From positions 1 to 32,309 of the IMG/VR virus record IMGVR_UViG_3300025120_000280: 32,309 nt of DNA. The stretch is one strand, 5' to 3'. Each line of letters opens with the position of its first letter. The stretch's first letter is position 1. This DNA comes from a virus. Position numbers and translations under genes: made by a program. This document shows, in pieces, positions 2,531 to 30,843 of this stretch. The notes under the pieces were generated by a model. It saw nothing but the letters and a program-made list of their open reading frames with translations, ran no database searches and was not told the DNA's origin.

Positions 2531-4228
2531 TCATTTCTTATTATCCTTTTTGCTATTAACTTTAACTTCTTCTTTTGAAGTAGTGTCATAACCCTCCGTT
2601 GTATAGATTGATACTTTGTTTGATTTACCTTTCACTTGAACATCATCTAACTTTCTAAACTTAAATAATTTTGAAACCTCACTATAAGTATCTTCCCCAA
2701 CTATCAATGTTGCGTCATAGTTTTTAGAAACACCTTCCAATCTACTTGCTAAATTAACAGCATCACCTAGCACTGAATAATCAAATCTCTGTTGTGATCC
2801 CATATTCCCTACTACGGCCTTTCCTGTGTTGATACCTATACCAATATTTATTTTAATACCTTTCCCAAAAGCATTACTTTCATTTAACATTTTTAGTTTT
2901 TGTATCATTTCATGCGCTGATTTTATGGCTGCTTCACGGTGTTTAGGTGTGTCAATTGGCGCATTCCAAAATGCCATTATGCAGTCACCCATATACTTGT
3001 CAATCGTTCCATTGTTCTTCATTATTATATCTGTCATTGGAGTTAAAAACTTGTTGATAACCACAGTCAATCCTTGTGGATTTTTTTGATACTTTTCTGA
3101 TATAGGAGTGAAACCTCTTATGTCACAAAATAGAAAAGTTAACTCTTTTGTTTCTCCACCTAGTTTTAGTAAGTCAGGATTTTGTTGTAGCTTCTTAACC
3201 ATCTTTGGCTCTAGGTAATGTTCAAATTGTTTTTTAATTTGTAGTTTTAATCTATTCTCTCTAGCAAAGTTATTATATATTAAATGTGTCCATACAATAG
3301 TTATTATAATAGCAATAGATGACCAATCTGTAATTATCATTTTACTATGCCATAGATAACCAGCAGACAAAGCCATATCAATATATGCACCAAATAATAA
3401 TATCGCTGACCATAACAATCCTACTCTAGGTATAATATACACAAATAAAATTAAACATATTATTAATCCTATCCATTCTAACTTAGGCAACCAATCAGGT
3501 CTTGTTATAAACTTACCTGATAGTAAAGTTTCAGTTGACAACGCCATAATTTCGTGTGTATTTTTTAAACCATTAGGAGTTAATACAAATGTTGAACCTG
3601 TAAATGTAGCACCTATGAATACTATTTTACCTTTTACTGATGACCAATCTAAATCAGCATGATCTATTCTAGGTATTTGATGTCTAAAATCAATCCATAT
3701 ATCATCTTGTTTAGGTAATGGAAACTTTATGACCTTCATTATAACAGATGGTACGGATTTGTCAAGTGGTAATTTTCTTATAGTACCATCAACATCAATA
3801 GGTACATCTACATTACCTACGCCTAATACTTTTCTCTTAATACTTTGTAGATTTTTTGCGTTATCAGTTTCTGTTAAGATAACAGGATACTTTGAAATCA
3901 TTTTCAAAAACATCTCATCACCACCTAGTCTATCTTTATGTACAAAAACTACATTTAAGAAAACTAAAGCAGCACCATTTTGATATGCTTTGATTATACT
4001 ACGACCTAGTTGATCTCTCTTCCATGGCCATTGACCTTTTAATGTTAATGCTGTATCTGATATGTCTATTAATACTAAACTTTTTGATAGATAGTTAGTA
4101 CCAAACTTTTGGTATAAATCAAATGTTTTTAATTGTAGGGTCTGTAAAGGTACAGGATTATATATCTTAATTGCTAATAATATAACCACACTTACCACTA
4201 CTGCCCAAGTGGAAGTTATCTTGCTCAT
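2531..4228 (-). CDS. CHASE2-domain class III adenylate/guanylate cyclase, membrane-bound
   Basis: Predicted to make a cyclic nucleotide from a nucleoside triphosphate in the cytoplasm under control of a periplasmic sensor. The order over 565 aa is TM helix (about 8-22), CHASE2-like extracytoplasmic domain (about 30-240, including VLIDISD and GKIVFIGAT), three TM helices (about 250-318), linker, then cyclase catalytic domain (about 362-545). The catalytic set is complete: metal aspartates in LFCDIRGFT (Asp369) and MGDCIMAFW (Asp415), base-contact Lys411 and Asp489, and transition-state Asn492 and Arg496 in NLASR. Lys411/Asp489 favours ATP as substrate. It is the last gene of the csgF-csgG-curlin-FecR block, 8 bp after FecR. 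CHASE2 cyclases next to FecR-domain proteins are a recurring bacterial arrangement. I know of no phage example with established function. Confidence 0.92.
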   Translation of the reverse strand: MSKITSTWAVVVSVVILLAIKIYNPVPLQTLQLKTFDLYQKFGTNYLSKSLVLIDISDTALTLKGQWPWKRDQLGRSIIKAYQNGAALVFLNVVFVHKDRLGGDEMFLKMISKYPVILTETDNAKNLQSIKRKVLGVGNVDVPIDVDGTIRKLPLDKSVPSVIMKVIKFPLPKQDDIWIDFRHQIPRIDHADLDWSSVKGKIVFIGATFTGSTFVLTPNGLKNTHEIMALSTETLLSGKFITRPDWLPKLEWIGLIICLILFVYIIPRVGLLWSAILLFGAYIDMALSAGYLWHSKMIITDWSSIAIIITIVWTHLIYNNFARENRLKLQIKKQFEHYLEPKMVKKLQQNPDLLKLGGETKELTFLFCDIRGFTPISEKYQKNPQGLTVVINKFLTPMTDIIMKNNGTIDKYMGDCIMAFWNAPIDTPKHREAAIKSAHEMIQKLKMLNESNAFGKGIKINIGIGINTGKAVVGNMGSQQRFDYSVLGDAVNLASRLEGVSKNYDATLIVGEDTYSEVSKLFKFRKLDDVQVKGKSNKVSIYTTEGYDTTSKEEVKVNSKKDNKK

Positions 4229-4236
4229 AAGACTAT

Positions 4237-6387
4237 TTAGTCTGTTTGTATGATAGTGATATTACTTTGATCGGCACTATTACCTACATCAAGGTGTTGT
4301 GCCTCAGAATCTTGTAATATTTGTATGTCTGCTTCTTTTGATGTTTCAGTTTGTACATATGCTGTATGATTATCATTGGTTCTATTTAAGATAGTAAAAT
4401 CACCACTTGTACTTGAATCAGCATCGTGCTCATTGTTTAATGTTGATACTCTTCCAGTAGAAGTCGCTGAAGATGAAGCACCTGTGACGCCAGATGTTGA
4501 AGTTAATGTTTGAGTCACATCTCCTGTTGAATAGTTAAGAGTTTCACCACTAGCAGTTAACTTTGTTTCATTACCCTCGTTATCAACATATTCAGTACCA
4601 CAAGATTGATTAGCAATGTCAAAATAATATCCGTATTTTAAACATTCTTCTTCATTATAACTTGCCAATAGTATTTCTAATTCTGCGTCTATGTCGTAAT
4701 CATCTTCATAAGCATATTCATCTTCCCAATTAGTTTCATCTGTTTCATTGTTATAATCATAACCTGAATACCACCAGTCATAGGCAGCGTCATAGTAAGT
4801 ATTGTAATCGTTATAATCCCATTCATTGATGTACTTGTCTTTTAAGTCTTTCATCTTCCAAGGTTTAGGTTGATTTTCACATAACTTAAAGTCTGGCCAA
4901 TTACCACACCAACCAAATAGTTTACCAAATATTTTTTTAGATTCCTTATCCCAACTAGTGGCAGTCACTTTTAAATACCAGTCATCTTTATAAAAGTCAT
5001 TTAGATAATCAACATACTCTTGGTTGCACCAATAATCTTCATAACCATTATACACACAATAGTTTTGTAGTGTCAATGTTGGAGGACCACCATTTGCTTT
5101 ATATTCTGCGTTAGAATAGTAATTGTCGTCCATCGTAAAATCTTCCCAACTATATCCTTCAACAACTGATTCAGTTTCTTCTTTTGTTGCTTCAACTACA
5201 TCAACTTCTTCAACTGTTGAGTTCCAAGATGTTAGACCATACTTCTCTAGTGTATCATTGTATGCCTCATCATAAGCATCCCAATCTACATTATCCCAAT
5301 CAATAGAATCCCAATCAATCGTATCATATGAACAACCTGACTCACAACCTATAGCGTCAAAGTATGCTTGGTCCATTTCTGCATACATTTTTTTAGCATC
5401 GTCCCAATCCATTTTACTTTCACCTTCAGCGTCCCATACTGAAATCTGATTGTCTTCATCTATATAACCCCACTCTTTTAAATCTGATTCATATTCATCA
5501 TAGTAAGATGTATCTATATCTGTTTCAGCTTCTAGTGCTGTTGCGTCTAAACCTTTTTCTTCTTTAGAATCCATTTCAATCATTGAGTCTGCCTCACTAA
5601 CTGACATATCAGTAGCAACTATATTATCATTAGTTTCATTGATAGTTGTTTCTTCACCAAAGATTGAGTCTTCACTATTTTGTGCTTTGTTAGATTTTTT
5701 ATCTACATCTCCAAAACCCTTTTCAGTTTCATCTCTTATATCTTCTTCAAAAGAATCTAACTGTATAATTTTTCTGTTGTCTGTTTCTATTCTAGGAGGT
5801 GTTGGTGCTAAATCATTAGATAAAACTGTCACCGAACTGAATGCGTTTGTGATTGTTTGAGAACCTGCGTCATTTGATACTGTCACTTGACCTACTACGC
5901 CATCACTATCTGGTAATAAAGTAATAGTTGCACTACCAAAACTATCTACTGTACCTGAGAATGCTGTACCTTGTACTGTGATTGAAGCATTACCAGCAGC
6001 AATATTAACTTCGCCACCTAAAGTAGATACACTACCTGATTCATATGTAAATGAACCTACATTAACAGATACATTCATTGCTAATTCTATTGGTACAACT
6101 GAAGTATCAAAAGCAAATTGGTCAATAGTTAATTCAGTATTAGGTCCCATTGTAAACTTTGTACCATCTATATAACTTAATATCATACCACCATCTTCAC
6201 CTGTTTGAAGAAAGTCCTTCATTTGTAATTCATAACCCATTAATGTATTTTGAGTTTCACCCTCACGCTCATTCCAAGTCGTACCCATTTGACCTGTAAT
6301 TTCTCCAACTTTAGGACTTGTAATTTGTGAGATTGTACTAGTACAGAAAAGTATCAGAAAAGATACTATAAAAAATATTCTTTGCAT
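4237..6387 (-). CDS. Secreted FecR-domain protein with acidic aromatic middle and curlin-like tail
   Basis: This 716-aa protein has a clear signal peptide (residues 1 to about 20). A FecR-type domain covers about 22-190: VGEITGQMGTTW, a GxxLxxxDxLxTGEDGG-like stretch, then SYIDGTKFTMGPNTEL. FecR domains act in the periplasm as ligand or partner sensors. Residues about 200-600 are extremely rich in Asp, Glu, Tyr and Trp, with tandem DWD units (IDWDSIDWDNVDWDAYDEAY). The last ~100 residues are Ser/Thr/Asn/Gln-rich and end in curlin-like units (DIQILQDSEAQ, NITIIQTD). It starts 1 nt after the curlin-like gene stop and precedes the cyclase by 8 bp, which suggests a sensor partner for CHASE2 or a surface subunit exported by CsgG. 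The domain combination is unusual. Confidence 0.8.
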   Translation of the reverse strand: MQRIFFIVSFLILFCTSTISQITSPKVGEITGQMGTTWNEREGETQNTLMGYELQMKDFLQTGEDGGMILSYIDGTKFTMGPNTELTIDQFAFDTSVVPIELAMNVSVNVGSFTYESGSVSTLGGEVNIAAGNASITVQGTAFSGTVDSFGSATITLLPDSDGVVGQVTVSNDAGSQTITNAFSSVTVLSNDLAPTPPRIETDNRKIIQLDSFEEDIRDETEKGFGDVDKKSNKAQNSEDSIFGEETTINETNDNIVATDMSVSEADSMIEMDSKEEKGLDATALEAETDIDTSYYDEYESDLKEWGYIDEDNQISVWDAEGESKMDWDDAKKMYAEMDQAYFDAIGCESGCSYDTIDWDSIDWDNVDWDAYDEAYNDTLEKYGLTSWNSTVEEVDVVEATKEETESVVEGYSWEDFTMDDNYYSNAEYKANGGPPTLTLQNYCVYNGYEDYWCNQEYVDYLNDFYKDDWYLKVTATSWDKESKKIFGKLFGWCGNWPDFKLCENQPKPWKMKDLKDKYINEWDYNDYNTYYDAAYDWWYSGYDYNNETDETNWEDEYAYEDDYDIDAELEILLASYNEEECLKYGYYFDIANQSCGTEYVDNEGNETKLTASGETLNYSTGDVTQTLTSTSGVTGASSSATSTGRVSTLNNEHDADSSTSGDFTILNRTNDNHTAYVQTETSKEADIQILQDSEAQHLDVGNSADQSNITIIQTD

Positions 6388-6388
6388 A

Positions 6389-7465
6389 TTAGCATCCGTT
6401 CGCTACATTAGCTGTCACATCTGCTGTTTGGTTGTTTCTGTTAAATGAATAATTACAAGTATCAGAACCATCTTGCGTGAAGTTTAAAGTGTAATCGTAA
6501 ATACTATCACCTGATACATTAATGTCTGCTGTATTTGCACCACCTACTTGTGCCATATTAATAGCAGAGTTAGATGTATAGATATAAATTCTAGCAGTAT
6601 TAGTACCACCCTCTTGGTGTAGTCTTAATACATTGTTATTACCATTAGTGACTGTTTTTAAATAGTTGTTATCGCCTTTGATAATTATTGTATCAAAGTC
6701 ACCACTGTGAGAAGCGTGTAAATCTAAAATGTTTGAATTACCTATAATGTCATGTACTTGATAGTTGCCTGTTCCGTAAGATGAAGTATCTAATCTATTT
6801 GAGTCACCAATAATATAGGCGTCAAGCGTTGCGCCTTCACTACCTGAAGAATCTGCGAACTGTCCATGTGAAGCAACATTGGGACCTATTGATACATTAG
6901 AATTTGTGTTCATACCTACTGAGTCTGTATGAGTATAGACATGGACTCTATTTGAGTCACCTGACATAAGAACATAAAAGAAGTGACCATCGCCTCTACT
7001 TTTTATCCAAAAATCATTTGAGTCGCCATCTAAATCTAAATCTATATTAGTTTTAGTAGTATTATCTGAATCTCTATTATCTATTCTTATTGTATTTGAA
7101 TCACCTCTAACATCTAAATCATACCAGTGACCAGTTGAATCTGTATCACCTTCAATTCTCAACTTATTACCATCACCTTTAGCGTCTAAATCAAGTGTCA
7201 TGTCTTCACCTGCAAACAATAAATGTGAAGATAGGTCAGTTAGATTGTTCTTACCTATTTGTCTAATAATAAGTGTTAGATTCTCGCCATCAATTACAAG
7301 TGGTGCGTTAGCAGATATACCTACTTTATTGCCTGATCCGTCTTGTTTTATGAATATTGTGGTATCTTTGTCTTGGTTTTGTTGTTTAACCCAAACAGAA
7401 TTACCAGCGTAAATTTTACTCGTCCACGCTAGAAGAATCACTATCGCTATCATTATCTGTTTCAT
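6389..7465 (-). CDS. Curlin-repeat-like secreted protein, probable amyloid subunit
   Basis: Probable substrate of the CsgG/CsgF exporter. The signal peptide is MKQIMIAIVILLAWTSKIYA. At least eleven short units of the type hydrophobic-x-GxxN follow, such as IKQDGSGNKVGI, IRQIGKNNLT, VRGDSNTIRI, IIGDSNRLDT, MAQVGGANTADI and FTQDGSDTCN. This spacing is that of the CsgA/CsgB strand-loop-strand repeat (QxGxxNxA), although most units have lost the Gln and carry GDSN. Two Cys near the C-terminus (DTCN, NGC) could form a disulfide. I chose ATG 7465 over ATG 7471 because GGAGGAG then lies at normal spacing. The gene begins inside csgG, overlapping it by 50 nt, so the two may be translationally coupled. 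Confidence 0.78.
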   Translation of the reverse strand: MKQIMIAIVILLAWTSKIYAGNSVWVKQQNQDKDTTIFIKQDGSGNKVGISANAPLVIDGENLTLIIRQIGKNNLTDLSSHLLFAGEDMTLDLDAKGDGNKLRIEGDTDSTGHWYDLDVRGDSNTIRIDNRDSDNTTKTNIDLDLDGDSNDFWIKSRGDGHFFYVLMSGDSNRVHVYTHTDSVGMNTNSNVSIGPNVASHGQFADSSGSEGATLDAYIIGDSNRLDTSSYGTGNYQVHDIIGNSNILDLHASHSGDFDTIIIKGDNNYLKTVTNGNNNVLRLHQEGGTNTARIYIYTSNSAINMAQVGGANTADINVSGDSIYDYTLNFTQDGSDTCNYSFNRNNQTADVTANVANGC

Positions 7466-8480
7466 CAGCATTCTCCTCCGTAGGTTTCTTTATCGGTATT
7501 ATTTTAACCGTTTCTTCTTCTAATTCTTTTTTTAATTTCTTTTCTTCAAGGTATTGTTCATAAGTTTTTTCTACTTTTTCACCCATATCAACACCATCAT
7601 CTTCAAATACTATATCACTATGTCTATTAACAGTTTCAACTTCTTTAGTTTCTACATCATTTTTACCGTCATCAATGTAATCTTTGATTTGAGGTACTTT
7701 AATTTCTTCTATTTTTTTAAATGCCCATAAGTCTTTCTTGGCACCTTGTTCTATAATTTCTACTACACCTTTTTCAATTGCTTTTCTTATAGCAAATGTC
7801 ACTGGTTCGTTCTTTGCATAACCAGCTTCTACTTCTAATAACATTGTATCAGTATCAAAGTATTTAAATATATCACCACCAACACTTGTTGAAACAATAG
7901 TCTTTTCAATAGTTGTTGTAATAACTACTTCACCTGTTTGTACATTTACCAATCTTAATATGATTGTGACAATATCTTCTCTGTATTGTTTGTTAGATTG
8001 TATACCTAATATTCTAGCACCAAAGCCACCTGATTTAATATCACTATCATAACCTACAATACCACCTGTGATATATGCACCAGCAAATAATAGTGGTGGT
8101 AATGGTTCTGCTTCTTCACCATCTACTTGTTGTCTAGTTGATCTAATTAGTTTTCTTTCTTGTAGTAAACTTGGTAAACTTGATCTCTCTACTACTCTAA
8201 ACCATTCGCCTTGACCTGCATCTGATAATGCCTTAATTAATAATTGATATGATCCTTGAGTCACTGCTGTACTCATTGACGCAAAAGATCCACCTGGTTT
8301 CTTTTGACCTGTCATATCTAAAAAATCATAAACAGCAATTACAATAGGTTCTCCATCTGGACTTTGAATTGTGTTTAGATCTTTGTAAGCAACTTGTTGC
8401 GTTCTAACATCAAACTTTGGTTTTCCTGCGCAGCCCACTAATATTAAAGATAGTAGGAATACTGCTATATACTTAAACAT
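7416..8480 (-). CDS. csgG: CsgG-like outer-membrane curli secretion channel (lipoprotein)
   Basis: CsgG forms a nine-subunit outer-membrane pore that exports curli subunits. This 354-aa protein has a lipoprotein signal with lipobox LVGC (Cys17). It then follows CsgG closely: PIVIAVYDFLDMTGQ, LLQERKLIRSTRQ, GGIVGYDSDIKSGGFGAR, LRLVNVQTGEVV and AGYAKNEPVTFAIRKAIEKG. E. coli CsgG is 277 aa; the extra ~80 residues here form an acidic, charged C-terminal tail. The loop matching the E. coli pore constriction (Tyr51, Asn55, Phe56) reads KKPGGSFASMSTAV, so those residues are apparently replaced. It overlaps the csgF stop by one base and contains the start of the curlin-like gene. Confidence 0.93.
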   Translation of the reverse strand: MFKYIAVFLLSLILVGCAGKPKFDVRTQQVAYKDLNTIQSPDGEPIVIAVYDFLDMTGQKKPGGSFASMSTAVTQGSYQLLIKALSDAGQGEWFRVVERSSLPSLLQERKLIRSTRQQVDGEEAEPLPPLLFAGAYITGGIVGYDSDIKSGGFGARILGIQSNKQYREDIVTIILRLVNVQTGEVVITTTIEKTIVSTSVGGDIFKYFDTDTMLLEVEAGYAKNEPVTFAIRKAIEKGVVEIIEQGAKKDLWAFKKIEEIKVPQIKDYIDDGKNDVETKEVETVNRHSDIVFEDDGVDMGEKVEKTYEQYLEEKKLKKELEEETVKIIPIKKPTEENADETDNDSDSDSSSVDE

Positions 8481-8938
8481 TAACTATTATCCTCTTTAGG
8501 CATTGTGAACACTGTTGTTGTTCCATCTGATTCTGTGACTGTGACAACTACATTACCTGTACCTGCTGGTGTTGTCCATTCAACTGTTTCACCACCAACT
8601 GGATTTGTAAATGTACCTGAGTCTTGTTGAAGACCATCTGTACCAAAAACATTGTCTGTAATTTGTTTCGCTAGAGCAGTGTAAAATCTACTCTCTATAT
8701 TCGCTTTGAATTTAGCAATAGGAGTGTTCTTTGCGTCTGATTCCGCTTTTTCTTTATCAGCTTTTGCTTGCGCTTTGATAGCGTCTTTACGAGTCTTCTC
8801 TATATTTTCAATCGTTAAGTAGTGTGATGACTTACCGTTGCCTGAAAATGATGGCGACCCAAACTTAAATGTCAATTCTGACGCACTTACATTAAAACAT
8901 AATGCGATTACTGACACGAATACTATTAATTTTAACAT
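8480..8938 (-). CDS. csgF: CsgF-like curli assembly factor
   Basis: CsgF binds the outer side of the CsgG pore and positions the nucleator. After the signal peptide, the mature N-terminus SELTFKFGSPSFSGN matches the CsgF segment that inserts into CsgG (TFQFRNPNFGGN in E. coli). The rest follows the family: FKANIESRFYTALAKQITDNVFG, shown here only as the helix that parallels the E. coli FTQAIQSQI helix, and a C-terminal beta hairpin (NVVVTVTESDGTTTVFTMP). ATG 8938 is preferred to the TTG at 8959 because it has GGAGAG at good spacing and starts a proper signal peptide. The gene is first after the late promoter. No csgE is recognisable nearby. Confidence 0.9.
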   Translation of the reverse strand: MLKLIVFVSVIALCFNVSASELTFKFGSPSFSGNGKSSHYLTIENIEKTRKDAIKAQAKADKEKAESDAKNTPIAKFKANIESRFYTALAKQITDNVFGTDGLQQDSGTFTNPVGGETVEWTTPAGTGNVVVTVTESDGTTTVFTMPKEDNS

Positions 8939-8960
8939 CTTCTCTCCTATATGATACAAC

Positions 8961-8968
8961 TATTTATA
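8961..8968 (-). promoter_or_regulatory. T4-type late promoter TATAAATA upstream of csgF
   Basis: Exact TATAAATA on the minus strand, 22 bp before the csgF ATG. In T4-like phages this octamer is the -10 recognised by the gp55 late sigma factor. Its position in a non-coding gap at the head of the curli block argues that it is functional and that the cassette is expressed late. Confidence 0.75.
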
Positions 8969-9993: not shown

Positions 9994-10451
9994 TATTCTT
10001 TTTTCCCGCCGTTTTGATAGATCATATTTCTATTACTATCTTTTAATTTCTCAACATCATCACGCAAGATTTTTACATCTTCTTGTAGTCTTTTGATATT
10101 GACACCATTGTTCATCATATTTTCCATTTGATTTTGTACTGCCTCTAATTGACCAGCGATATGCTCAATCAACATATATTGCTCTGAGTCAGCTGGTAAA
10201 GAACCCATTTCTCCACGAGGCCACTTAATTCTAAATTCTGTATTCTTTTCTAAATCAGACCCTATACTTTCAACGGCTTGATTTAAGTCTTTTTCTGCTA
10301 GTGTACTTTTAGTTTCTAGCATTGTAATTCTTTCTAACACACCGAAGTATGCCCAAACGCCAACTGCAACAGCTGCCACTATGGAAAGCAAATTTCTCAT
10401 AGGCATACTAATAGCAGTGTTATCTGATATATCTAATCTATTCTTTGCCAT
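9993..10451 (-). CDS. Membrane-anchored coiled-coil protein
   Basis: This 152-aa protein has one TM helix near residues 20-38 (LLSIVAAVAVGVWAYFGVL). A long, mostly charged region with heptads follows (LEAVQNQMENMM, LQEDVKILRDDVEKL). It overlaps the 3' end of the o-spanin gene by 14 nt. The position directly after the spanins and the single N-terminal TM make a holin or lysis-accessory role possible, but there is no diagnostic motif. A similar but reversed layout (coil first, TM last) is seen in the 1810-2244 gene. Confidence 0.65.
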   Translation of the reverse strand: MAKNRLDISDNTAISMPMRNLLSIVAAVAVGVWAYFGVLERITMLETKSTLAEKDLNQAVESIGSDLEKNTEFRIKWPRGEMGSLPADSEQYMLIEHIAGQLEAVQNQMENMMNNGVNIKRLQEDVKILRDDVEKLKDSNRNMIYQNGGKKE

Positions 10452-10824
10452 TTTTCTTCACCTCAGGTTCGTAATACTCCTTATATTTATCCAATAAGTC
10501 ATTTGTAATTGCTAGTTGATTTCTAATTTGAGCAAAATTCTTCGCTAGTAATTCAAAATCTTTATCTGTCAAACCCCATAGAACAGGATCAATACCAGAT
10601 TCCTCTAGTTTTTTAAACACTTCTTCAGCGTTCTTACTAGTTATAATTATCCATTTTAGGTTCTCTAACTCTAGTGGAGTTGGGGTGTTCAAATTGAGTT
10701 CTTGTCTTTTAACTTCTTCTTTAAAGATACTTAACTTTTTGACACCTGCGCAATTAGTAAGGAATATACTTAGGATTAGCAAGCCCAGGACATTCAGAAT
10801 TAATCTCTGATTTCTTCGTAGCAT
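10438..10824 (-). CDS. Probable outer-membrane spanin subunit (o-spanin lipoprotein)
   Basis: 128 aa with a lipoprotein signal and lipobox FLTNC (Cys25), giving a short lipid-anchored periplasmic protein. The mature part has a TPTPLELENL segment and helical stretches. The start lies inside the preceding i-spanin gene in another frame, a 71-nt overlap; overlapping or embedded Rz/Rz1 pairs are a hallmark of two-component spanins, which fuse inner and outer membranes in the last step of lysis. It is longer than lambda Rz1, so the call rests on topology and arrangement rather than sequence identity. Confidence 0.7.
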   Translation of the reverse strand: MLRRNQRLILNVLGLLILSIFLTNCAGVKKLSIFKEEVKRQELNLNTPTPLELENLKWIIITSKNAEEVFKKLEESGIDPVLWGLTDKDFELLAKNFAQIRNQLAITNDLLDKYKEYYEPEVKKNGKE

Positions 10825-11212
10825 TTAATTCACTCTCAGTTAATGGTGATCCACTAGCAATCTCTATACATCTTGTCGCCAGTGCTGAAGCACCGTTTGT
10901 TATTCTTTCAATAGCTTCGGTTTTAGCAATAGCTAGTTTACCGACATCTCTATTTTTCTTATTGAATCTTTTATCCAAATTTTCTAAATCTTGTTTTAAA
11001 ACACCTACTAACTCATTCATCTTCTGGTTAGCCTCTAGTATTTCTTTAAAATCTTTTTGTTGATTCTCTATAAGTGCTTTTTGTTCACCTATAGCAGATT
11101 CTAATTTAATAGCATTCGCTTTTAGAATACCATTATCTCTTTGTAATTTAAGCACATAGGCACCAGCACCTAATAGTGATGTGATGATGATGCCTATTAA
11201 AAATAATCTCAT
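10754..11212 (-). CDS. Probable inner-membrane spanin subunit (i-spanin, Rz-like)
   Basis: 152 aa with an N-terminal TM signal-anchor (LFLIGIIITSLLGAGAYVL). A long periplasmic coiled coil follows (LKQDLENLDKRFNKKNRDV), then a C-terminal region with two Cys (ATRCIEIAS, NSECPGL) that could form disulfides. This matches the N-in/C-out topology of Rz-type i-spanins. Its 3' end overlaps the lipoprotein gene by 71 nt. It is preceded by a 33-aa TM protein. No endolysin is seen in the window. Confidence 0.7.
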   Translation of the reverse strand: MRLFLIGIIITSLLGAGAYVLKLQRDNGILKANAIKLESAIGEQKALIENQQKDFKEILEANQKMNELVGVLKQDLENLDKRFNKKNRDVGKLAIAKTEAIERITNGASALATRCIEIASGSPLTESELNATKKSEINSECPGLANPKYIPY

Positions 11213-28394: not shown

Positions 28395-29072
28395 TTATTT
28401 CTTTAGAGCAATGGCTCCTATAAAATTAAAGTTCTGCCAGAAATTATGTACTTCAAAACCTGCCTTGTTTAACATATCATATATTTCTGTCTTAGTATTT
28501 AATTTCATCATGTGCCTTAATTGTACTTCCTTATCTAATATTTCTTTATCACTAAAATATTTTCTTTTATAATCATAAAAAGTAAAAGTCATCATGTCTT
28601 GTATTTTAGGATTACAACTAAAAGTCTTTTCACTAAAGATAAAAGCGCCACCTGTATTAAGACCATTGTAAACTTTATTCAATACTTCTTGTCTATCTTT
28701 TGGCGACATAAATTGTAAAGTAAATATAGAAGTGACTAGTGAACAATTATTAAAACTATAATCTCTTACATCACCTTTATAATAACTTAGTTGTTGATAC
28801 TTTTCCTCATCAAAATTATAGTCACCATAGAAATCATCTTCTATTTCAATACCAGTGTATTGTGCGTTTGGAATATGTGCTTGGTTTTGTTCAATCATAC
28901 CCTTTAATAATTTACCTGTTGAACAACCAATGTCAACAACTTGGGTATAGTCTTCTACAAAATATTTTGATAGTGAAAGTATATCACCCCATAAGTGAGA
29001 ATACCCTCTAACGGATTTATCAATGTGATTATCAAATCCTTCTTTGTCTGTGGCAAATGTAAACTTAGTCAT
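28395..29072 (-). CDS. CmoA-like SAM-dependent methyltransferase
   Basis: CmoA makes carboxy-SAM used for wobble-uridine (cmo5U34) modification of tRNA. This 225-aa protein follows it in order: HIDKSVRGYSHLWGDI, SAM-binding VVDIGCSTGKLLKG, the acidic strand GIEIEDD, GDVRDYSFNNCSLV, then SIFTLQFMSPKDRQEVLNKV, YNGLNTGGAFIFSEK and KAGFEVHNFW. The FTLQF, GLNxGGAFxxSEK and final KAGF motifs are shared with E. coli CmoA. No CmoB partner is seen. It overlaps the C5-methyltransferase gene by 8 nt. Another small-molecule or tRNA methyltransferase remains possible. Confidence 0.75.
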   Translation of the reverse strand: MTKFTFATDKEGFDNHIDKSVRGYSHLWGDILSLSKYFVEDYTQVVDIGCSTGKLLKGMIEQNQAHIPNAQYTGIEIEDDFYGDYNFDEEKYQQLSYYKGDVRDYSFNNCSLVTSIFTLQFMSPKDRQEVLNKVYNGLNTGGAFIFSEKTFSCNPKIQDMMTFTFYDYKRKYFSDKEILDKEVQLRHMMKLNTKTEIYDMLNKAGFEVHNFWQNFNFIGAIALKK

Positions 29073-30228
29073 TATTTAACTCCTTATATGGTTTCAATAC
29101 TTTATTGTAAACACTTTCAGCAAGTGCTTTCATCATCAACGGTGGTACCATACGACCAATCCTTTCTGATTGTTGTTTATGTTTACCTGTCAATTTAAAG
29201 TCTTCAGGTAAAGACATAATTCTTTTTAGTTCTTTGATAGTAAACTTTCTATCTTCTATTGGGTGGCAAGTACCAGCAACACCAGCAAGATTACCCATCG
29301 CAGTAATTGTTGGACAAGGTTTTCTTAAACTACTTCTCTTTAAATTAAAGTGATGACCTTTAACATGATAGTCCATACCAGTCAATACTTTGTCTGGATC
29401 CTTTGGCATTTTCATTAATGTTTTACCAACAGCTTTTTCTGGACTTATCTTATCAATTAAATAATCTAATTCTTCTTTATCTTCATTTACAATATCATTA
29501 ATTGCTTCGCCAAGTGTAGTTCTAAAATCATTCTTATCAGGATATAGTTGATACATAGTCATAAAATTTAAACCAATCGCATCTGCCACATCTTCTCTTA
29601 CACCTATGAAGAAACATCTTTTACGAGATTGTGGTACACCAAAATAACTTGCGTCTAATACATTAGCAACTATAAGATAACCAATTTGTTCAAATGTATT
29701 TTGTATCTTATGAAAATACTCTTTGGCTTCACCCATAGTCAAACCTTCAACATTCTCACCAATAATAACTCTTGGTTTTATATCTTTTGCCACTCTTAAA
29801 AATTCAAAAAATAAATCTTCAACATTTTCTACACCTTTTATATCTGAGTATTGTTTAGTTTTATTGAACGCATCAGCGTGTGTATTACCTCCACCGTGCG
29901 ATATAGAACCTGCCATACTGAACGCTGAACAAGGTGGAGAGCCATCTAATATGTCTAACTCACTTATTTTAACACCAGCTTTTTCCATAAGGTATGTACC
30001 TGTTAGTTCTTTTATATCACCTGGTACGATAACTGTATTAGGATAATTTTCTCTATATGTATTTTGTGCTTCTTCAACAAATTCATTTACAGCTAGTATC
30101 TTACCACCAGCCAATCTATAACCAGTTGATGAACCACCACCACCAGCGAAAGTTGATACCACATTGAATAGTGCTCTTTTCTCACTATCTAAAGTATCTT
30201 GTAATGTATATCTTTTATAATTGTTCAT
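29065..30228 (-). CDS. DNA (cytosine-5) methyltransferase
   Basis: 387 aa, methylates C5 of cytosine in a specific DNA site. Motif I STFAGGGGSSTGY, motif IV DGSPPCSAFSMAG with catalytic Cys100, motif VI IIGENVEGL, motif VIII-like QSRKRCFFIGVRED, then a C-terminal target region and motifs IX-X (RKPCPTITAMGN, REL-type IKELKRIMSLPEDF). All key elements are present. It has its own early promoter and no adjacent endonuclease gene, so it is a solitary methyltransferase or a distant partner of the 24321 nuclease. The likely use is protecting phage DNA or marking it. Confidence 0.93.
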   Translation of the reverse strand: MNNYKRYTLQDTLDSEKRALFNVVSTFAGGGGSSTGYRLAGGKILAVNEFVEEAQNTYRENYPNTVIVPGDIKELTGTYLMEKAGVKISELDILDGSPPCSAFSMAGSISHGGGNTHADAFNKTKQYSDIKGVENVEDLFFEFLRVAKDIKPRVIIGENVEGLTMGEAKEYFHKIQNTFEQIGYLIVANVLDASYFGVPQSRKRCFFIGVREDVADAIGLNFMTMYQLYPDKNDFRTTLGEAINDIVNEDKEELDYLIDKISPEKAVGKTLMKMPKDPDKVLTGMDYHVKGHHFNLKRSSLRKPCPTITAMGNLAGVAGTCHPIEDRKFTIKELKRIMSLPEDFKLTGKHKQQSERIGRMVPPLMMKALAESVYNKVLKPYKELNND

Positions 30229-30269
30229 TATTCCATTTCATTAATAACCATACGACAAAACCGAATATC

Positions 30270-30298
30270 ATTATAACATATAATATTGAAAGAGTCAA
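30270..30298 (-). promoter_or_regulatory. Sigma70-type promoter of the C5-methyltransferase gene
   Basis: TTGACT (30293-30298), 17-bp spacer ending ATGT, TATAAT (30270-30275), with an extended -10. The predicted start near 30263 gives a leader of about 35 nt with a GGAAT ribosome site. Confidence 0.8.
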
Positions 30299-30306
30299 GT
30301 CCCAAA

Positions 30307-30843
30307 TCATACTTCATTTCCCCAACTGTTCCAGCCTTCTCGTTTTCTACGAGCAAATAGTTCAATATATGGGCCATCTAACATCTTCTCAATATGGCTA
30401 TATACTATATCTGGTTTTCTACTGTGTTCTCGTCTTTGATCAACCACTAATTGTGGTATACTTTTATTTAGCCGTTTAGGTTTACCTCTTGTAGCTAATA
30501 AGCACATTTCTGGATTGCCTCTAGTCCAATATCCTAGACCTGTAAAGAAACCCATTTTAACTCGATTCGTTTTTGCCCAAGTAAAACCTACTGTCTTGTA
30601 TTTGAAGCCCCAAGCTTTGATGACTTCAAATGCCTTATCTAATAAAGGGTCAACTACCCACATTAATAAGACTGCATCGTCCTTAGCAATTCTGTCAACA
30701 GGTAGCCGAATAATGTCAGATAAAGACATACAAGGATAATGTTTTTCAGGACTTTTATCTTTGCCTTTGTCACTAAATGTTTTAAAGGTCCAAGGTGGAT
30801 CCGCATATATTACTCCATGTTTTTGTGTTGTATTAAATTCCAT
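30307..30843 (-). CDS. MT-A70-family N6-adenine methyltransferase
   Basis: 178 aa. Catalytic DPPW (15-18) in VIYADPPWTF; MSLSDIIRLPVDRI; AVLLMWVVDP; WGFKYKTVGFTWAK; CLLATRGKPKR; HSRKPDIVYSHIE; and FARRKREGWNSWGNE. These are the ordered motifs of phage and bacterial MT-A70 enzymes, which methylate adenine in DNA. It overlaps the 50-aa gene 3' end by 11 nt and is followed by the C5-methyltransferase promoter. Confidence 0.92.
   Translation of the reverse strand: MEFNTTQKHGVIYADPPWTFKTFSDKGKDKSPEKHYPCMSLSDIIRLPVDRIAKDDAVLLMWVVDPLLDKAFEVIKAWGFKYKTVGFTWAKTNRVKMGFFTGLGYWTRGNPEMCLLATRGKPKRLNKSIPQLVVDQRREHSRKPDIVYSHIEKMLDGPYIELFARRKREGWNSWGNEV

Follow-up and report, generated by a model that had tools for sequence, protein, structure and literature searches.

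Curli genes in marine phages have been described before. Wittmers et al. 2022 (PMC9599517) described a pelagiphage type VIII secretion system (T8SS) cassette, also found in myoviruses, that contains FecR and adenylate cyclase (AC) genes. There, a role in curli regulation is proposed and an alphaproteobacterial origin is argued for. The csgF and csgG genes of pelagimyophages were described by Zaragoza-Solas 2020. Receptors with CHASE2 sensor domains are known from cellular bacteria. The Sinorhizobium meliloti cyclases CyaD1, CyaD2 and CyaK likewise combine CHASE2 with a class III cyclase and read an outer-membrane signal: an extracellular protein activates them by way of NsrA, an outer-membrane barrel. 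Their output is sensed by Clr, a regulator of the CRP family, and curli genes lie outside the described pathway (PMC13001267). In Burkholderia, a LysM-FecR/CHASE2-kinase operon regulates biofilm (PMC5192318).

We analysed a linear virus DNA of 32,309 bases, the whole of which we refer to as the window. Its gene content (ribonucleotide reductase large subunit, DNA primase, UvsX-type recombinase and B-family DNA polymerase) is that of a T4-like phage, and the window is a fragment of such a marine phage. The best isolate match of the DNA polymerase is SAR11 phage Mosig (69.9%), and those of UvsX are OM43 phage Melnitz (70.4%) and SAR11 phage HTVC008M (69.5%); a SAR11 host is likely. The csgF, csgG, curlin-repeat, FecR and AC genes are co-located, with the cyclase gene as the last in the run csgF-csgG-curlin-fecR-cyclase (Table 1). 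The window is thus a further member of the cassette already published for pelagiphages (HTVC008M; Wittmers et al. 2022). An earlier interpretation of this DNA, made without database searches (the sequence-only reading), had overlooked the membership of the cyclase in a curli cassette. An isolated single acquisition is ruled out, as the gene sits in a five-gene cassette.

Table 1 Positions of the cassette features, and of two other gene pairs, in the window
Feature	Position	Strand	Length	Details
CHASE2-domain class III (IIIb-type) nucleotidyl cyclase	2531..4228	-	565 aa	single open frame
Cyclase catalytic domain (Guanylate_cyc)	2603..3151	-	aa 360-542	Pfam E 7.1e-22; D369, K411, D415, S485, N492, R496
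CHASE2 periplasmic sensor domain	3440..4183	-	aa 16-263	Pfam E 1.4e-28; flanked by one predicted membrane helix on one side and three on the other
FecR-like secreted protein	4237..6387	-	716 aa	phrog_37870 E 1.3e-20; long D/W/Y-rich insert; curlin-like tail ...NITIIQTD
Curlin-repeat protein (CsgA/B-like)	6389..7471	-	360 aa	Pfam Curlin_rpt E 5.3e-5; profile of other phage curlins E 5e-27
CsgG outer-membrane secretion pore	7416..8480	-		Pfam CsgG E 2.8e-51
CsgF	8480..8959	-		Pfam CsgF E 1.8e-12; likely start ATG at 8938, preceded by GGAG ribosome site
T4-type late promoter, TATAAATA	8961..8968	-		22 nt before csgF ATG 8938
Rz-like spanin gene pair, overlapping	10438-11212
Two DNA methyltransferase genes	29065-30843			near DNA polymerase; cytosine type; adenine-like MTase_II matches

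The HTVC008M cyclase (AGE60353.1 in KC465899, gene order csgF-csgG-curlin-FecR-curlin-AC) resembles that of the window in neighbourhood, order, domains and active-site residues, at 32.6% identity. The two cassettes differ in that the FecR of HTVC008M is about 370 aa long and its curlins are encoded by two ORFs, whereas the window and its clade have a FecR of 714-799 aa and a single curlin ORF.

Both halves of the cyclase score above curated Pfam cut-offs (Guanylate_cyc, 78.3 bits versus 21.9; CHASE2, 100.6 versus 26.3), identifying it as a class III cyclase and a CHASE2 receptor. An AlphaFold2 model of the monomer, built from 51 aligned sequences (mean pLDDT 86.8, with low confidence at 416-420 and 479-481), places a single N-terminal helix before a mixed alpha/beta CHASE2 domain, followed by three more membrane helices and the cyclase domain; the membrane helices are predicted at 2-23, 246-268, 271-296 and 302-335. 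The claim of the sequence-only reading that the transmembrane and CHASE2 sensor parts are intact agrees with the Pfam match and with these modelled helices. The modelled catalytic domain superposes on solved adenylyl cyclases (VIA-align: 3r5g, Z 20.7; 4yus, Z 20.9; 1wc1, Z 20.4), and Foldseek aligns it to 3r5g with a TM score of 0.82 of the target. Pseudomonas aeruginosa CyaB, S. platensis CyaC and OaPAC thus have a catalytic fold in common with the window cyclase (Z about 20), whereas their sensor domains differ and the window has Ser rather than Thr at position 485. Since guanylyl cyclases such as Cya2 score equally well, the substrate cannot be named from the fold alone.

The active-site residues are more informative. 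Both metal-binding residues (D369 and D415), the purine-contacting K411 and the transition-state pair N492 and R496 are present, as in class III cyclases, at columns that match CyaB and OaPAC. D369, K411, D415 and R496 are invariant in 83/83 viral sequences, and N492 is kept in 82. Of the six canonical residues listed in the sequence-only reading, these five hold and D489 does not. D489 sits in 'GDAVN', at a column occupied by Arg in P. aeruginosa CyaB and by Ala in 6fht; it is conserved in the subfamily (80/80 viral and 74/74 cellular sequences) yet lies outside the canonical six. The sixth, purine-specifying position, seven residues ahead of the catalytic Asn, is filled by Ser485. Class IIIb cyclases have Lys together with Thr or Ser replacing the substrate Asp, a pattern formed here by K411 and S485; in our alignment, the corresponding residues of CyaB and OaPAC are Lys and Thr. 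Position 485 is Ser in 76, Thr in six and Asp in one of the 83 viral sequences, and Ser or Thr in all 74 cellular relatives. Because the substrate positions follow the class IIIb pattern and Ser or Thr is kept in relatives, cAMP is the more likely product. Judged by its residues and domains, the protein is probably a catalytically active, phage-encoded cyclase with an intact membrane sensor. The lone exception at both variable positions is the cyclase of isolate Melnitz, a Methylophilales phage, in which Ser stands in for N492 and Asp for S485. That enzyme may be inactive or altered, and given these replacements activity may not persist in every phage.

The gene is under purifying selection. 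Comparisons with close relatives give dN of 0.08-0.23 and dS of 0.47-1.8, with dN/dS of about 0.13-0.18, ratios that are rough because they come from simple NG86 counts with dS near saturation in the more distant pairs. The frame is open in relatives, dN is far below dS and the active site is nearly invariant, in keeping with the view of the sequence-only reading that this is not a decayed acquisition. The cyclase could instead be a passenger, carried along with the curli cassette and having little function of its own, as might be suspected from the altered Melnitz active site and from cassettes that lack AC (noted by Wittmers et al. 2022, PMC9599517). Counter to this are the low dN/dS, an active site preserved across very divergent viruses and a linkage to curli genes that is kept after rearrangement, and we think the passenger explanation very unlikely.

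IMG/VR contains at least 599 matching stretches. Where a viral locus extends 7 kb or more upstream of the cyclase, csgF or csgG lies near it in 32 of 33 cases, versus none of 75 cellular loci. Two arrangements occur: 47 viral loci are colinear, and 12 (L011 and L014-L024) are divergent, with the cyclase head to head with csgF and the other curli genes on the opposite strand. Arrangement changed at least twice on the cyclase tree. That the linkage survives rearrangement suggests functional coupling of the cyclase to the curli genes over mere co-transcription. Repeats within the cassette form only weak, chance-like families.

In a tree of 154 rows, a branch with support of 100 separates viral cyclases, together with those of five contigs from bacterial metagenome-assembled genomes (MAGs), from cellular cyclases. 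Of the phylogeny against host lineages proposed in the sequence-only reading, this delivers the split between viral and cellular forms; as the tree is unrooted and its rows were picked by similarity, the direction of transfer is outside its reach. With the same bounds on sampling and rooting, the fully supported branch leaves recent capture from a host unsupported. The window cyclase belongs to a separate 25-member clade that includes no isolate. The five MAG contigs (L084, L085, L093, L097 and L111) carry viral-type cyclases, and two of them, L085 and L097, have the full viral curli cassette. Since every one of the five falls among the viruses, these contigs probably represent phage sequence misbinned into the MAGs as contamination.

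The FecR-like protein may connect the cyclase to the curli machinery. The window protein falls below the Pfam FecR cut-off (16.4 bits versus 24). The phage versions align with Pfam-FecR proteins that adjoin Thalassospira-type CHASE2 cyclases, and the FecR/CHASE2-cyclase pair exists outside phages, since fecR is directly upstream of the cyclase in eight cellular loci that lack curli. A C-terminal [IVTL]x[IVLF]xQ motif ends 40 of 43 phage FecR proteins (the window and loci L004-L083, L085 and L097) and 37 of 76 phage curlins. Among other viral ORFs it ends 7 of 732, and it is absent from all 20 cellular FecR proteins; these counts are descriptive, because the motif was set after inspecting the sequences and the phage rows are related, but the contrast is still large. 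In a model of a shorter phage FecR homologue (pLDDT 69.7, moderate confidence), the chain ends in a ladder of short strands, and the model matches PupR, an anti-sigma regulator (E 7e-5), and a putative anti-sigma factor (E 3e-4), both at cell-surface-signalling domains. We infer that the FecR tail may dock on curlin or on the curlin export route. In the FecR model from L052:6025-7152, 63 columns match 5ix9, a domain for anchoring at the cell surface (E 7.6e-3, rmsd 1.2, TM 0.75 of target). A fusion of FecR with a second curlin was also considered and rejected, as the second-curlin profile gave no match to the FecR protein.

The timing of expression bears on what such a sensor could do. The motif NATAAATA occurs near csgF in 20 of 43 homologous loci, versus 4% of random 220-nt stretches, and upstream of csgG and of fecR in none of the 43. 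In the annotated HTVC008M genome, which encodes a late sigma factor, the motif lies within 60 nt of 10 of 28 late structural genes and none of 18 replication genes; csgF has it too, in the form TATAAATA, which is the core of the T4 late promoter. In the window, the total of TATAAATA is not enriched (three observed versus 7.6 expected), and what is informative is where it stands. Terminators and sigma-70-like sites occur no more often than chance predicts. In colinear phages the cyclase is probably transcribed from this putative csgF late promoter.

Late expression would also suit a part in lysis. The authors of the Melnitz description proposed csgGF as a lysis-related pore (PMC9004378), and a CsgG/F pore with a cyclase sensor could help to set the moment of lysis. 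Rz-like spanin genes 1.5-2.3 kb upstream of csgF favour this idea, as does the late promoter, but the curlin repeats, the FecR tail and the need for a cyclic nucleotide are left unexplained, and we regard lysis timing as improbable.

A late-type promoter is a poor fit with early counter-defence. The sequence-only reading had raised interference with nucleotide-based antiphage signalling, in which the cyclase would flood or decoy immunity of the Pycsar or CBASS-like kind, and PADLOC PycC profiles do match (best E 4.1e-28). These matches, however, span only the shared class III domain, the Lys411/Ser485 pair indicates an adenine-type pocket and linkage to curli genes is strict. The cyclase adjoins curli and phage replication genes rather than a PycTM or PycTIR effector, and no Pycsar effector was noticed in the window. 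Counter-defence therefore lacks specific support and appears highly improbable.

Another possible use of phage cAMP is host takeover, in which the messenger drives a CRP-type regulator and thereby reprogrammes transcription or switches on curli genes as happens in enterobacteria, which is how Wittmers et al. 2022 read it. Arguing for this are the conserved active site, the membership of the cyclase in the cassette and the action of cAMP on curli via CsgD in gammaproteobacteria (cited in PMC9599517). Counter to this, the csgF promoter resembles a phage late promoter, and readers of cAMP are scarce. Across 117 SAR11-order genomes, which may be incomplete, we found no class III cyclase, no class I cyclase and no CRP (HTH_Crp_2 above cut-off). 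Among cAMP-binding folds the search covered the cNMP_binding domain (PF00027), which is present in seven of these genomes and in none of 11 phage records. The seven (L167 and six others) hold the only cNMP-binding candidates, and the one scanned is a large protein with an acyltransferase-domain fusion. Genomes G251 and G340, which belong to this order, match four SAR11 16S probe sites exactly. A literature search found no statement on CRP in Pelagibacter. With CRP missing from the SAR11-order genomes and most of them lacking a cNMP-binding domain, no obvious way of reading the signal presents itself. The suggestion in the sequence-only reading that a phage cyclic nucleotide could steer host transcription is weakened accordingly, given that SAR11 is the likely host, and we consider host takeover unlikely.

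The reading we prefer, with about even confidence, is that the protein is a late trans-envelope sensor, a competent class IIIb CHASE2 receptor-cyclase that forms the inner-membrane arm of the phage curli (type VIII secretion) module. CsgG/CsgF and curlin would operate in the outer membrane and on the cell surface. The secreted FecR-domain protein, with its curlin-like tail, would convey the condition of the fibre or pore through the periplasm to CHASE2, which would in turn determine how fast cyclic nucleotide is made inside the infected cell, most likely with cAMP as the output. Catalysis, the identity of the product, signalling from FecR to CHASE2 and the stimulus are here deduced from anatomy and precedent, and the nearest precedent known to work for such a route is S. 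meliloti CHASE2-NsrA signalling. We consider it possible, if doubtful, that the tailed FecR couples the phage curli pore or fibre to the cyclase and so produces a messenger in hosts without recognisable machinery for making or reading it, implying a novel reader or use.

New here are the late promoter before csgF, the linkage that persists when the genes are arranged divergently, the phage FecR tail and the SAR11-order survey. Neither the divergent order nor the FecR tail is seen in the available portion of Wittmers et al. 2022 (PMC9599517), and a word search of the paper gives no mention of a promoter, catalytic residues or C-termini. The curli cassette occurs widely among ocean viruses, and the range of functions open to it is narrowed by a cyclase that is constrained, tied to curli genes across gene orders and placed behind a late-type promoter. 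HTVC008M infects SAR11 and its cyclase active site is intact. If the window phage also infects SAR11, its cAMP would arise in cells that lack CRP, and the question of what reads it becomes concrete for the culturable HTVC008M.
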